From NCBI GenBank assembly GCA_937981575.1, contig CALJNR010000043.1, forward strand, positions 1-64,000: a stretch of DNA of 64,000 bases, in the 5' to 3' direction. This DNA is from an uncultured Clostridia bacterium (GTDB lineage: Bacteria; Bacillota; Clostridia; Lachnospirales; Cellulosilyticaceae). Both the position numbers and the translations under genes were made by a program. This document shows, piece by piece, positions 11,019 to 57,995 of this stretch. Under the pieces are notes generated by a model. The model searched no databases. It was not told the DNA's origin and saw only the letters and a program-made list of their open reading frames with translations. Each line of letters opens with the position of its first letter. The first letter of the stretch is position 1.

Positions 11019-11171
11019 ATGTCACAAAAATTACTCCTTGAAATTGAAAGACTAAGAAACGAGTTAAATAAAGCGTTAGATGAGAATGCATTAAGGCTTG
11101 ATAAAGATAAGGTAATGGATTTAAGTTTGAAGCTGGATAAGCTTATATTAGAGTATATTAATGAGGTATAA
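11019..11171 (+). CDS. Spo0E-like sporulation regulatory peptide
   Basis: A 50-aa protein. It has a first helix with IERLRNELNKAL and a second helix carrying LSLKLDKLILEYI. This second helix is the Spo0E-family signature (S-x2-LD-x-LI-x2-Y) used to dephosphorylate Spo0A~P in Bacillus. The ATG at 11019 is preferred over one at 11013 because AGAGGG ends 8 bases upstream. A terminator follows at once, so the gene is monocistronic. By analogy it would delay sporulation by draining Spo0A phosphate. Clostridia commonly have several such paralogues, and the target here is inferred from the motif only. Confidence 0.8.
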   Translation: MSQKLLLEIERLRNELNKALDENALRLDKDKVMDLSLKLDKLILEYINEV

Positions 11172-11177
11172 TAAGCA

Positions 11178-11225
11178 AAGGTTTAATAGAGTAGAGTGAT
11201 CTATAAGCTGTTAAACCTTGTTTTA
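11178..11225 (+). terminator. Terminator of the spo0E-like gene
   Basis: AAGGTTTAA at 11178 pairs with TTAAACCTT at 11211, followed by GTTTTA, 7 bases after the stop codon. Confidence 0.75.
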
Positions 11226-11226
11226 T

Positions 11227-11341
11227 TATAGAGAAACACTTCTAATACTAAATTTATTCATTTGCTTAGAGGTATTTCTCTAAATGATTTCACAGCAGGC
11301 AATCTTATGAATAAATTAAACTTTAAGCTGTGAAATCTATA
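11227..11341 (+). repeat. Two-hairpin intergenic element, copy A
   Basis: 115-bp element flanked by TATAGA and TCTATA. Hairpin 1 pairs 11230-11245 with 11266-11281 (16 positions, one mismatch and one G-T). Hairpin 2 pairs GATTTCACAGC (11286-11296) with GCTGTGAAATC (11327-11337). The two loops contain 11 perfectly complementary bases: AATTTATTCAT at 11251-11261 and ATGAATAAATT at 11307-11317. Homologous copies lie at 36936-37049 (same strand) and 51703-51817 (opposite strand). It is either a structured RNA or a small non-autonomous mobile element. Confidence 0.8.
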
Positions 11342-32592: not shown

Positions 32593-32614
32593 TAATACCT
32601 TATAAACTTAATAA

Positions 32615-32719
32615 AAAAACTATACGACTGGCGGATCAGTGGAATAACCACAGGGAGTATAGTTTGGATAAGCCGACCGCCTGGGCAAAACTTTTAGTTA
32701 AAGCTGCCCAGGCGGTTTT
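32615..32719 (+). promoter_or_regulatory. ZTP (pfl) riboswitch with expression-platform terminator
   Basis: The aptamer is recognised by P1 arms ACTATAC (32619-32625) and GTATAGT (32657-32663). It also has a GTGG...CCAC hairpin and the conserved CCGACCGCCTGGGCA at 32673-32687. CCGCCTGGGCA (32677-32687) can instead pair with TGCCCAGGCGG (32705-32715), followed by TTTT, to form a terminator. Ligand binding would therefore permit read-through. ZTP or AICAR accumulates when 10-formyl-THF is short, and purH consumes AICAR with that cofactor. Confidence 0.93.
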
Positions 32720-36898: not shown

Positions 36899-36932
36899 AT
36901 ACTTAAATCATGCTATAGTATGATTTAAGTAT
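36899..36932 (+). terminator. Terminator of putP
   Basis: ATACTTAAATCAT pairs perfectly with ATGATTTAAGTAT around an 8-base loop. The following run is TATTAT rather than T-rich. It ends 4 bases before repeat copy B. Confidence 0.7.
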
Positions 36933-36935
36933 TAT

Positions 36936-37049
36936 TATAGAGAAACAACATATAAACTTGAATGATTCATTACTATAAAGCTGTTTCTCTCAATGATTTC
37001 ACATCATAGAAGATCGTGGATAAGAAAATTTAAAGATGTGAAATCTATA
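36936..37049 (+). repeat. Two-hairpin intergenic element, copy B
   Basis: 114 bp with the same TATAGA/TCTATA ends as copy A. Hairpin 1 pairs AGAGAAACA (36939-36947) with TGTTTCTCT (36982-36990). Hairpin 2 pairs GATTTCACATC (36995-37005) with GATGTGAAATC (37035-37045). Relative to copy A, the hairpin-2 base pair G-C has changed to T-A on both sides, a compensatory change. The loops have diverged, and no long loop-loop complementarity is seen here. Confidence 0.75.
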
Positions 37050-44159: not shown

Positions 44160-44450
44160 AATATTTATATGATAAAAGCAATGAAGATGCATAGTATAAA
44201 GATTATACCCTCCAAGAGAAAAGGTATCAGCGGCTGGAAGTACCTTAGGCACTGTAATTTTTTGAAATTCCCATCTAAGCTTTGTTTCTGAAAAATGCAG
44301 TAGGAAATGACGGTTGCCACGTTAGAGCATAATGAGTGTTTATATAGGTATAAAGCCATGCGCAGGCATGTGTTTTATGCGGCTATATAAAAATCAGGGT
44401 GGTATCGCGGAGCATGCTTCGTCCCTTTTAGGGATGAGGCTTTTTTATTT
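44160..44450 (+). promoter_or_regulatory. T-box riboswitch of pheST (tRNA-Phe)
   Basis: The T-box sequence AGGGTGGTATCGCGG is at 44396-44410. A terminator follows at about 44418-44450 (GTCCCT-TTTAGGGATGAGGC then T6), mutually exclusive with the antiterminator. The leader is about 290 bases. The specifier is probably UUC (44268-44270) on the 3' side of stem I, matching phenylalanine; its exact register is inferred. Uncharged tRNA-Phe would allow read-through into pheS. Confidence 0.9.
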
Positions 44451-48122: not shown

Positions 48123-51100
48123 ATGAATAATCTATTTACTCATCTGCATGTGCATACGGAATATAGTCTTTTAGATGGCTCCGCCAAAATTAATGATTTG
48201 CTGGACCGGGCGAAAGAGCTTGGAATGGACAGTCTGGCTATTACAGACCATGGGGCAATGTATGGTGTGATTGATTTTTATAAAGCTGCTCATAAGCGAA
48301 ATATTAAGCCTATTATCGGATGTGAAGTGTATTTAGCTTCCAGGACCCGTTTTGATAAAGAGCCAGTTGATTTAAGTTCATACCATCTCGTCCTTTTAGC
48401 CGAAAATAATACAGGTTATCAAAACCTTATTAAAATGGTTTCTCTTGGCTTTACAGAAGGGTTCTACAGAAGACCACGTATTGACCTGGATTTACTAGCT
48501 GCTCATCATGAAGGACTTATTGCGCTTGGGGCTTGCCTTGCGGGACCAGTCAGCAGAAAATTGCTTCAAGATGAATATGAGAGTGCCAGAGAAATGGCCC
48601 TTAAACTAAGAGATATTATGGGACAAGACCACTTTTTTTTAGAGCTGCAGGATCACGGCATGAAACAGCAGCAAAAGGTCAATCAGCTCACCATGAGACT
48701 TGCTGATGAACTAAATATTCATATGGTGGCTACCAATGATGTCCACTATATAAAGGCAGAAGATGCCAATCCCCATGAAGTACTTTTGTGTATCCAAACA
48801 GGAAAAACCATGCAGGATGATGATCGTATGATTTATGAGGGAGGGCAGTATTACCTTAAAAGCAGTGAGGAAATGTATAAGCTTTTTCCTTATGCTGCGG
48901 AAGCGCTTAGAAATACTGCTGAAATTGCTAAGCGTTGTAATGTAGGTTTTAGTTTTAATGAACTGAAGCTGCCAAGTTTTGATGTACCCAAGGATATGTC
49001 GCCTGAAGCTTATTTAAGAGAAGTGTGCTATAAAGGACTTGAGAAAAGATATACACCTATAACAGAGGATTTAAGAGACAGGCTGGAATATGAACTTGAT
49101 ACCATTATTCAGATGGGATTTGTCGACTACTTTCTGATTGTAGGAGATTTTATCAGTTATGCGAAGTCCAGCGGCATTCCAGTAGGGCCGGGAAGGGGAT
49201 CTGCTGCAGGAAGCATCGTCGCTTATGTGCTGGAAATAACCAATATTGATCCTATTAAGTATAATCTGCTGTTTGAAAGGTTTTTGAATCCCGAGAGAAT
49301 CAGCATGCCTGATATAGATATTGATTTTTGCTATGAAAGGCGGCAGGAAGTTATTGATTATGTTATCCGAAAGTACGGGGAAGAACGAGTTGCTCAGATC
49401 ATTACCTTTGGAACGATGGCAGCAAGGGCTGCGATAAGAGATGTCGGGCGGGCCATTAACATGCCTTACCAAGATGTAGACCGCATTGCTAAAATGATTC
49501 CTAACGAGCTTAAAATTACGATTGATAAAGCCCTTGTGATGAATGAAGAGCTAAGGAGGCTCTATGAGGCGGACGAATCAGTTAAATATTTGATTGATAC
49601 GTCCAGAAAGCTTGAAGGACTCCCAAGACATTCATCCATGCATGCGGCTGGGGTTGTTATATCCAAAAGACCTGTCGTTGAATATGTGCCGCTTAATGCC
49701 AGTGACGGCGTCATTACAACGCAGTTTCCTATGACAACGCTGGAAGAACTAGGTTTGTTAAAAATGGATTTTTTGGGCCTTAGGACACTTACTGTTATTG
49801 ATAATGCTGTTAAGCTCATTAGCAAAAATCATCATATTTGTTTAGATATTGAAAAAATGGATGATAATGATAAAAAGGTTTATGAGCTGATTGCATCTGG
49901 AAGTACCGATGGGATTTTCCAGCTGGAAAGCGCAGGGATGAAAAGCTTTATGAAAGAATTAGCGCCAAGCAGTATGGAAGACATTATAGCCGGGATTTCA
50001 CTTTACAGGCCTGGCCCTATGGACTTTATTCCAAAATATGTAACAGGGAAAAAAGATGCTTCAAGTATCACCTATACCCACCCTAAACTTGAGCCGATCC
50101 TGAAAAACACCTATGGATGTATTGTATATCAGGAACAGGTTATGCAGATTGTAAGAGACCTTGCCGGATACAGTCTCGGAAGGAGTGATCTCTTAAGACG
50201 TGCCATGAGCAAAAAGAAATCCGATGTGATGCAGAAAGAGCAGGAAATCTTTTTATATGGTGATGGTAAAGAGATATTAGGGTGTATCACAAACGGTATT
50301 CCAAAAGAAGCAGCAGAAAAAATATTTGAAGATATGATTGACTTCGCAAAATATGCATTCAATAAATCCCATGCTGCAGCTTATGCAATCGTTGCCTATC
50401 AGACAGCTTATTTAAAAACTTACTATAAAGTAGAGTTTATGGCGGCTTTGATGACATCAGTTATGGATTCATCTCACAAAATAACAAACTATATTGAAAA
50501 CTGCAAAAAGATGAATATTACAGTACATGCTCCGGACATTAACAGTGGATATGCTTATTTTGATGCGAAAGACAATCATATAATATACGGCCTTGCTGCA
50601 ATCAAAAATGTAGGTAAAAATGTCATAGACCGAATTGTTGAAGAAAGAGAAAAAAATGGTTTATTCAAAAGTCTGACAGATTTTTATAACCGAATGGAAA
50701 CAAAGGATACGAATAAAAGAAGCATTGAAAGTCTTATTTTAGCTGGCGCGTTTGATTCGCTTGGAGGCAGAAGAAGCCAATATATGGCAGCCTATAAGCA
50801 GATTGCAGACGGCGTTTCTCATAGCAAGAAAAATAATATTGCAGGGCAAATAGATTTGTTTGCACTTGGGCAAGGGGAGCAGATAGAAGATAAAGATAGT
50901 CTGCCGGATCAGGAGGAATTTGAGTTTAAAGATCTCCTAAACTACGAAAAAGAAGTGCTGGGTATTTATTTAAGCGGACATCCGCTAGATAAAGTAAGAA
51001 ATATATTAGACCAGTATATTTCTATCAAAAGCAGTCAGCTGGAATATGCGGAAGATGAGGAAGGCAAGGAGGATGCGGTCAAAGACGGACAACGCGTTTC

Positions 51101-51590
51101 GGTAGGCGGCATTTTGGTTGATAAGCGGATCATTTTTACAAAAACCAATAAAAAAATGGCTTTTTTGACCTTAGAAGATACATTAGGAATGATGGAAGTC
51201 ATCATTTTTCCTACGCTGTATGATACTTTTTCAAGTTACAGTGAAGAAAGCGTATTTGTGATTAAAGGCCGAGTTTCAGTCAAAGAAGAAACGACAGCTG
51301 TTATTATAGCTGATGAAATCACTACACTGGAGAGACTTTTAAATCCTGAAACAGAAGAACATATTTTACTGCGTTTAAATGAATCGATGCGCAATCAGGA
51401 AGTAAGAGAAAATTTAGTGCACATATTTAAGAAATACACAGGAAAAACTAAAATTATTGTAGAGAATATTGAGGACGGTACGCAAAAAGCTTTCCCCAAT
51501 AGATATAATGTGTGTATTACCGAGCAACTTATACAAGAATTAGTGGATTTGTTAGGTGAAAAATGTGTAGTAGTCAAAAAATACAATTAA
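48123..51590 (+). CDS. dnaE: DNA polymerase III alpha subunit DnaE
   Basis: Replicative polymerase subunit of the DnaE type, which in Firmicutes with PolC typically extends primers on the lagging strand. At 1155 aa it has the family length. The PHP domain is at about 5-275 (HLHVHTEYSLLDG, ITDHGAMYG). The palm has GPGRGSAAGS near 357 and the catalytic Asp pair in MPDIDIDFCYERR near 396-408. A helix-hairpin-helix is near 830-900 and an OB domain near 1000-1075 (VGGILVDKR). AAAGGAG precedes the ATG. It is monocistronic between pheST and pfkA. polC is not in the window. Confidence 0.97.
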   Translation: MNNLFTHLHVHTEYSLLDGSAKINDLLDRAKELGMDSLAITDHGAMYGVIDFYKAAHKRNIKPIIGCEVYLASRTRFDKEPVDLSSYHLVLLAENNTGYQNLIKMVSLGFTEGFYRRPRIDLDLLAAHHEGLIALGACLAGPVSRKLLQDEYESAREMALKLRDIMGQDHFFLELQDHGMKQQQKVNQLTMRLADELNIHMVATNDVHYIKAEDANPHEVLLCIQTGKTMQDDDRMIYEGGQYYLKSSEEMYKLFPYAAEALRNTAEIAKRCNVGFSFNELKLPSFDVPKDMSPEAYLREVCYKGLEKRYTPITEDLRDRLEYELDTIIQMGFVDYFLIVGDFISYAKSSGIPVGPGRGSAAGSIVAYVLEITNIDPIKYNLLFERFLNPERISMPDIDIDFCYERRQEVIDYVIRKYGEERVAQIITFGTMAARAAIRDVGRAINMPYQDVDRIAKMIPNELKITIDKALVMNEELRRLYEADESVKYLIDTSRKLEGLPRHSSMHAAGVVISKRPVVEYVPLNASDGVITTQFPMTTLEELGLLKMDFLGLRTLTVIDNAVKLISKNHHICLDIEKMDDNDKKVYELIASGSTDGIFQLESAGMKSFMKELAPSSMEDIIAGISLYRPGPMDFIPKYVTGKKDASSITYTHPKLEPILKNTYGCIVYQEQVMQIVRDLAGYSLGRSDLLRRAMSKKKSDVMQKEQEIFLYGDGKEILGCITNGIPKEAAEKIFEDMIDFAKYAFNKSHAAAYAIVAYQTAYLKTYYKVEFMAALMTSVMDSSHKITNYIENCKKMNITVHAPDINSGYAYFDAKDNHIIYGLAAIKNVGKNVIDRIVEEREKNGLFKSLTDFYNRMETKDTNKRSIESLILAGAFDSLGGRRSQYMAAYKQIADGVSHSKKNNIAGQIDLFALGQGEQIEDKDSLPDQEEFEFKDLLNYEKEVLGIYLSGHPLDKVRNILDQYISIKSSQLEYAEDEEGKEDAVKDGQRVSVGGILVDKRIIFTKTNKKMAFLTLEDTLGMMEVIIFPTLYDTFSSYSEESVFVIKGRVSVKEETTAVIIADEITTLERLLNPETEEHILLRLNESMRNQEVRENLVHIFKKYTGKTKIIVENIEDGTQKAFPNRYNVCITEQLIQELVDLLGEKCVVVKKYN

Positions 51591-51702: not shown

Positions 51703-51817
51703 TATAGATTTCGCAGTTTGAAGTTTAATTTATTCATAAGGTTACCTGCTGTGAAATCATTTGGGGAAACACCTCTAAGTCAACGAATAAATTAAGTTTT
51801 AGAGTGGTTTTTCTGTA
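51703..51817 (-). repeat. Two-hairpin intergenic element, copy C (reverse orientation)
   Basis: 115 bp, reverse complement of the copy A/B family, lying in the dnaE-pfkA gap. Read on the minus strand it aligns with copy A over its whole length. The loop complementarity is kept: GAATAAATTA (51785-51794) and TAATTTATTC (51726-51735), 10 bp perfect. Hairpin 2 pairs 51707-51716 with 51749-51758, with one mismatch. Ends are TATAGA (plus, 51703) and TCTGTA (51812-51817, one change from TCTATA). Confidence 0.75.
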
Positions 51818-51857
51818 AAATGCAAGTTATAAAAAACAACCATAGGGGGTTATTTTG

Positions 51858-52829
51858 ATGAGCAATAAAGTAAGTACAATAGGTGTATTGACAAGTGGAG
51901 GAGATGCTCCGGGTATGAATGCAGCCATCCGTGCAGTTGTGAGAGTGGGTCTTGCAAGAGGCATAAAGGTTATGGGTATTCAAAAAGGATACAATGGACT
52001 TTTAACTGGAGATGTACGTGAGCTTACAGCAAGAAGCGTATCAGATACTGTTCAAAGAGGAGGCACTATTCTTCAGACTGCCCGCTGCCTGGAGTTTTTA
52101 AAACCAGAAGGCCAGCAAAGAGGTGCTGAAATGTGTAAAGTTTTTGGTATTGATGGATTAGTAGTTATCGGCGGAGATGGATCTTTTCAAGGGGCTGAAA
52201 AATTAGCTAATCTTGGTATTAATACAATAGGTGTTCCAGGAACAATAGATCTTGATATTGCATGTACTGACTATACAATTGGTTTTGACACTGCTGTTAA
52301 TACAGCTATGGATGCCATTAACAAAATTCGCGATACTTCTACATCCCATGAAAGATGCTCGATTGTAGAAGTTATGGGAAGAAATGCAGGCTATATTGCA
52401 CTGTGGTGCGGTATAAGTTCAGGAGCAGAACTTGTTCTGATTCCAGAAAAAGAGAGACTTTCTGATGAAGAAATTATTAAAACAATTCTTGAAAATAAAC
52501 ATAATGGTAAAAAACACTTCCTGATTATTGTAGCTGAAGGCATTGGTGGATCAGGAAAGCTTGCTAAAAAGATTCAGGAAGTTACGGGCATCGAATCTAG
52601 AGCAACTATTCTTGGACACCTTCAAAGAGGCGGTTCTCCAAGTGCAGTTGACCGTGTTCATGCATCGATGATGGGGGCAAAAGCTGTAGACCTTCTTTGT
52701 GAGGGCAAGGCAAAAAGAGTAGTTGCCTTTGTTAATGGTCAATATGTAGACTATGATATCAATGAAGCACTTGCGATGACAAAAAATATTGATGACTATA
52801 TGTATGAGGTAAGCAACTTACTCGTATAA
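51858..52829 (+). CDS. pfkA: ATP-dependent 6-phosphofructokinase
   Basis: Committed step of glycolysis. The 323-aa length is that of the short bacterial clade. GGDGSFQGA near 102 is the ATP-type loop, and PGTID near 124 has the ATP-type Gly. The next residues are LD instead of the common ND; the catalytic Asp remains. MGRNAGY near 168, and the GHLQRGGSPSA active-site loop near 248 are intact. The ATG at 51858 is preferred to TTG 51855 (GGGGG is 7-8 bases upstream). It forms an operon with pyk after 23 bases, a common Firmicute arrangement. Confidence 0.96.
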   Translation: MSNKVSTIGVLTSGGDAPGMNAAIRAVVRVGLARGIKVMGIQKGYNGLLTGDVRELTARSVSDTVQRGGTILQTARCLEFLKPEGQQRGAEMCKVFGIDGLVVIGGDGSFQGAEKLANLGINTIGVPGTIDLDIACTDYTIGFDTAVNTAMDAINKIRDTSTSHERCSIVEVMGRNAGYIALWCGISSGAELVLIPEKERLSDEEIIKTILENKHNGKKHFLIIVAEGIGGSGKLAKKIQEVTGIESRATILGHLQRGGSPSAVDRVHASMMGAKAVDLLCEGKAKRVVAFVNGQYVDYDINEALAMTKNIDDYMYEVSNLLV

Positions 52830-57744: not shown

Positions 57745-57995
57745 TTTATTGACGATGATAAGAAGAGTAGCTTCTGCGGCGGTTTTCAGAGAGTTAGTGA
57801 GGGTGAGATACTAACAGCCTGGCAGTATGTGAAGAACATCTTGGAGTTGCTGACCGAAAGTGAATGATTGAGTAGGCTTAGCCGGGTTAAGACCGTTATA
57901 TCTTAATTGAGGTGGATTTCTATTTTGGGAAATCAACTAGGGTGGTAACGCGGAGCATACTTCGTCCCTTATATGAGAGGGACGGAGTTTTTTAT
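57745..57995 (+). promoter_or_regulatory. T-box riboswitch of asnS (tRNA-Asn)
   Basis: Classic elements are present: an AGAGAGTTAG-type box near 57790, the T-box AGGGTGGTAACGCGG at 57939-57953, and a terminator (CGTCCCTT-...GAGGGACGG-T6) at about 57963-57993. The probable specifier is AAC at 57835-57837, in GAAGAACATC, matching asparagine. Uncharged tRNA-Asn would promote read-through. Confidence 0.93.

Follow-up and report, generated by a model that had tools for sequence, protein, structure and literature searches.

Three gaps between genes in the DNA analysed here, a stretch of 64,000 nucleotides (the window) from the draft genome of an uncultured Clostridia bacterium related to Cellulosilyticum (3.56 Mb, 143 contigs), are occupied by versions of one sequence of about 115 bp that can be folded into two hairpins. 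The original prediction offered a dispersed RNA element, a REP/BIME-like repeat or a MITE as possible identities, and the question raised by the locus is which of these it is. Our answer is that the sequence is very probably a non-autonomous MITE of the IS630 type that inserts at TA and is most likely moved in trans by an IS630-family transposase. Copy A lies at 11227..11341 (+) and runs from TATAGA to TCTATA, copy B lies at 36936..37049 (+), and copy C lies at 51703..51817 (-) between dnaE (48123-51590) and pfkA (51855-52829), antisense to both genes. The three copies can be aligned end to end over their full length, which confirms the predicted positions, and with copy A as BLAST query against its own genome copy C was recovered at E = 8e-32 and copy B at E = 4e-13, so the window copies are not chance matches. 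By eye, a palindrome that resembles a terminator and is followed by a T-rich tail stands immediately before copies A and B (11186-11223 and about 36899-36935). An ORF of ~50 codons, too short to have entered the ORF list, is located ahead of copy A (11019-11174, +), and its sequence is conserved in the relatives G001 and G003.

The family proved to be much larger than the three copies first reported. The covariance-model search of the genome and its relatives that had been proposed with the original prediction was carried out with a model built from 46 copies and returned many copies with covarying stems. At least 67 distinct full-length places were found in this way in the own genome (G000), compared with 41 by BLAST (copy A as query, E < 1e-6); the raw model count of 79 may include the opposite strand of some copies, because the element is nearly palindromic. 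Most copies are 113-117 bp long with no transposase gene inside. Across 48 aligned copies the left end TATAGA and the right end TCTATA are sharp, the flanks share no sequence, and no duplication longer than these ends is seen outside them. Tandem copies that overlap through one common TA are found at C1:14337-14563 of G000 and likewise on C60 of G009, and a 42-bp remnant in G003 (C6:999558-999599) retains 22 bases of the left end and 20 of the right end and nothing in between, an apparent internal deletion. A conserved TTATTCA segment was considered as a DnaA box and rejected, as it fits only 2 of the 67 copies.

The element is also present in G002, G003 and G004 of the same genus and in G009 of the sister genus. 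The distribution is patchy, with one weak match in G001 (same genus) and none in 16 of the 24 genomes of the family, and a search of 196 genomes of the order at E <= 1e-4 gave matches only in the two genera and in G069, a genome of another family. Public records carrying the element are from Cellulosilyticum and from uncultured Clostridia genomes assembled from metagenomes, and no match was found in phage, plasmid and viral collections. In G069 one full copy (L192:1501-1615, -) keeps the two-hairpin layout with arms that are changed yet still paired (GAGAACCAAC/GTTGGTTCTC and GATTTCCAAC/GTTGGTAATC), and partial related matches occur at C25 and C27; as a single full copy, it is treated as a likely distant relative.

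Evidence for mobility comes from comparison with the relatives. For the window, collinear stretches are available in G003, G001 and G004, and the element is missing from the orthologous gaps at all three window copies: from that of copy A in G001 and G003, from that of copy B in G003 (12 bp between the flanking matches), and from the dnaE-pfkA gaps of G001, G003 and G004 in the case of copy C. For about 17 sites of the own genome, the three window sites included, a matching gap was identified on a single G003 contig of 1.44 Mb, and none of these gaps coincides with a listed G003 copy; the copies that G003 itself carries near dnaE are missing in turn when their gaps are paired with those of G004 and G001. 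Two sites, C77:6046 and C28:67941, are empty sites exact to the base, in which removal of the element and one TA yields the sequence of the relative, and the other gaps are empty and too diverged for the junction to be placed. Mapping of the ends for a target-site duplication, also suggested at the outset, thus revealed a duplicated TA at these two sites. Insertion strictly at TA with a 2-bp duplication is the signature of IS630/Tc1-mariner elements.

DDE_3 (IS630-type) transposases are present in G000 and G004. At L143 857-2124 of G004, each of two ORFs matches one half of the NCBI IS630 model NF033545, and the ends of this element are TATAGATAAACCGTTTTA and TATAGAGAAACCACTTTA, the second of which is near-identical to the left end of the small element. 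The G004 IS630 is multi-copy: 11 further identical right ends are located at contig ends, with flanks that are all different. Its transposase is encoded as two overlapping ORFs, as in programmed frameshifting (L143:939-2043, and the same in L141 and L146). G005 has six copies of a relative (77% identity) with ends TATAGATAAACCATTTATAAA, the end sequences being TATAGATAAACCATTTTAAATA and TATAGATAAACCATTTATAAAA. In the 16 positions that follow TATAGA, the best copies of the small element agree with the G004/G005 IS630 ends at 12-13; at most 0.07% of random flank sequences attain 12/16, a P value that applies to the top match among many copies. More weight can be given to the averages: against the G005 right end the mean match after TATAGA is 10.1/16 for left ends and 7.7/16 for right ends, compared with 5.0/16 (sd 1.9) expected for random flank 16-mers, the likeness of the right ends being the weaker one.

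The best-matching IS630 elements sit in G004 and G005 and not in the own genome, where three IS630 matches are distant (33-37% identity) and were rejected as partners, their ends having no clear match to the element. Lone left ends, tried as a route to an autonomous partner, were mostly truncated copies or chance matches; this type of search did expose the G004 IS630 right ends. G003 and G009 contain many copies of the element and no detected IS630 of the G004/G005 type, so their mobiliser would be lost, unassembled or different, and the link is good for the enzyme family rather than for one particular enzyme. Mobilisation in trans was probably by an IS630 transposase from a relative or by a lost kin of it. 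The element is short, gene-less and dispersed in many copies, with inverted ends, lineage-specific copies and a target duplication at empty sites, and a related autonomous element outside its own genome has matching ends (strong at the left, weak at the right); of the three identities proposed at the outset it is the MITE that agrees with these features.

The two hairpins of the original prediction are real and covary across genera. In copy A, hairpin 1 is formed between a left arm at 11231..11240 (+), within the left terminal inverted repeat, and an internal right arm at 11271..11280 (+), while hairpin 2 is formed between an internal left arm at 11286..11296 (+) and a right arm at 11327..11337 (+), within the right terminal inverted repeat; the internal arms of both are supported by folding, pairing counts and covariation, and the right arm of hairpin 2 by pairing counts. 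The predicted loop complementarity is present in copies A and C, in copy A between 11249..11260 (+) of loop 1 and 11308..11319 (+) of loop 2 (AATTTATTCAT/ATGAATAAATT; pairing counts), and is mostly gone in copy B (TTGAATGATTCAT versus GTGGATAAGAAAA). Among 46 aligned copies, 89% of cells are paired in hairpin 1 (columns 5-14 with 46-55), 92.5% in hairpin 2 (columns 61-71 with 105-115) and 84.5% in the loop-loop segments (columns 23-34 with 86-97), and sliding the partners by 1-3 columns lowered the pairing of the whole structure from 88.6% to 28-45%. The predicted G-C to T-A change in hairpin 2 between copies A and B is present, and among the 46 copies 28 have U-A and 11 have G-C at this position; one variable loop-loop pair is seen as GC, CG, UA and AU. 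Both partners of hairpin 1 pairs 12-48 (AU, CG, UA) and 14-46 (CG, AU) change together between genera, in a set of two genera and one outlier and with pairing counts that ignore shared descent. RNAalifold alone, run on a diverse set, recovered hairpin 2 only, hairpin 1 and the loop pairing being taken from the pairing counts.

The complementary loops are the inner part of imperfect terminal inverted repeats of ~35 bp: TATAGA and AAGTTATTCA are found in both when the first 35 bases are compared with the last 35 in reverse complement, and the middle of the repeat has no end-to-end match. The kissing or pseudoknot RNA interaction proposed originally is therefore not needed to explain the loop complementarity. 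The inner inverted repeat is absent from the IS630 ends, so transposase binding, judged by what the IS shows, does not account for it. In the mechanism that we propose, an IS630-family (Tc1/mariner-type DDE) transposase would recognise ends of the type TATAGA(G/T)AAAC and cut and paste the gene-less element in trans into a TA, which is duplicated. The ~35-bp imperfect terminal inverted repeat is made up of the left end, the outer part of the right end and, further in, the AAGTTATTCA/TGAATAACTT segments, and each terminal arm also pairs with an internal segment to give the two hairpins. The reading best supported by the covariation is that a mobile DNA element has conserved its symmetry, the hairpins probably being kept at the DNA level or by inheritance from founder copies.

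The placement of the copies bears on whether some have secondarily been recruited by neighbouring genes as promoter elements or as elements of mRNA processing or stability. With a simple ORF caller, 66 of the 67 copies are intergenic, 43 of them between tandem genes, 15 in divergent and 8 in convergent gaps, so that the gaps and the two orientations of the original prediction hold, but the position after gene ends is not a rule. Many copies lie only 15-40 bp from a start codon, co-transcribed copies would place stable hairpins in mRNA from either strand, possibly as a side effect, and there are precedents for recruitment in the Correia and ERIC elements (PMC10969869). Promoters and terminators, however, are not in excess over shuffled sequences in the two regions scanned, and the positions are not conserved, with no sign of selection for particular copies; we consider recruitment of some copies unlikely overall.

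A structural role of the hairpins is a minority view. The two covarying hairpins and the loop pairing could constitute one selected three-helix (kissing) structure needed either for the spread of the element itself or for an RNA role common to the copies, which we regard as quite improbable; if true, it would add to the mobility or function of TA-inserting MITEs something that is not known for them. Two small palindromic elements may have fused to give the three-helix layout: in the G069 relative the internal junction carries TAGATTTCCAAC and the right end carries GTTGGTAATCTA, as though both hairpins had formerly possessed ends of their own. A search of 1.44 Mb of G003 for monomers of a single hairpin bounded by TAGA...TCTA gave none, so the G069 relative is the one observation that speaks for such a fusion.

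That the sequence is a dispersed structured RNA or cis-regulatory element, with kissing hairpins acting in a transcript as terminator, attenuator, stability or processing signal, is very improbable. The three helices are 84-93% paired (28-49% in the slid controls of both alignments) and covarying, the hairpin 1 pairs that change together between genera fit this reading as well, and copies A and B fold well below shuffles in energy; the covariation is real, and by itself it is no argument for RNA. Both strands fold equally well, the z-scores of the three window copies being -5.1, -3.1 and -1.4 in the + reading and -7.3, -5.1 and -2.6 in the - reading, and copy B has lost the loop complementarity. 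The copies between tandem genes are 22 sense and 21 antisense, and this absence of strand bias, together with the divergent and convergent placements, argues against a transcribed regulatory element, which would usually have one. Orthologous positions do not retain copies, no terminator was called in the two scanned regions, and an RNA would leave the TA duplication and the IS-like ends unexplained. In agreement with the original prediction, which recognised no Rfam class, the Rfam search gave no family at the element in the window and only chance-level matches for a near-consensus copy. Elsewhere in the window, two T-box leaders (57746-57972, + and 44172-44429, +) and one ZMP/ZTP riboswitch (32614-32693, +) score above the curated thresholds.

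Hardly credible is a REP/BIME-like or IS200/IS605-type palindrome moved by a Y1 enzyme (TnpA/RAYT) with the hairpins as processed single-strand ends, for which one short element with two subterminal hairpins might be taken, since REP/BIME units, which are tied to a RAYT gene, are defined by movement without target duplication, the TA duplication at two exact sites and the inverted ends contradict it (Y1 enzymes are not known to make a target duplication or to need inverted ends), and the relatives have DDE IS630 elements with matching ends.

As a non-autonomous IS630-type MITE the element is of a known kind, and the family appears to be undescribed: no description was found in the open-access literature searched, and one may exist elsewhere. 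Among known elements, a 2007 review describes RUP, Correia and ERIC as 100-200 bp long with TA termini and a stem-loop formed by end pairing (PMC2229807). RUP is of about the same size as the present element (107 bp) and has 9-bp inverted repeats (PMC2229807), with ends that resemble those of IS630-Spn1 (PMC3049150). Both elements are AT-rich and intergenic, with ~100 copies, TA insertion and IS630-like ends (PMC2229807, PMC3049150), but RUP usually folds into a single end-to-end stem-loop and has another host group, whereas the present element has end-to-internal pairing, two arms and an inner repeat that joins the loops. Correia/NEMIS (~105-155 bp) and ERIC (127 bp) are likewise intergenic MITEs with TA termini, target duplication and strong structure, in their case usually one long stem-loop from end pairing, and the two-arm layout is not described there (PMC2229807); in the comparison with them, no promoter or IHF site is demonstrated in the present element. 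The CIR (Caulobacter/Brucella intergenic repeat), set apart from other bacterial repeats, has two arms and a linker (PMC2229807), and shares with the present element two inverted repeats giving two arms; it has no terminal inverted repeat listed and GANTC in the loop, unlike the inverted ends and complementary loops found here. The G004/G005 IS630 elements have TATAGA(T/G)AAACCA-type terminal inverted repeats, TA ends and the same host family, but are ~1.26 kb long with a two-ORF transposase and no end match beyond ~20 bp. The family combines the TA/IS630 signature of RUP with a CIR-like two-arm layout, and such a two-armed fold is uncommon for TA-inserting MITEs.

With this identification, three structured gaps in the window are accounted for, as are at least 64 others elsewhere in the genome, and a model is available with which they can be masked in riboswitch and terminator scans in this host group. 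For the Lachnospirales/Clostridia it means one more MITE family, linked to IS630 and inserting at TA, for which relatives provide natural empty sites and a candidate mobiliser. The inner inverted repeat, which the IS ends lack and which has been kept with compensating changes, raises the question of whether structure matters for the spread of MITEs.
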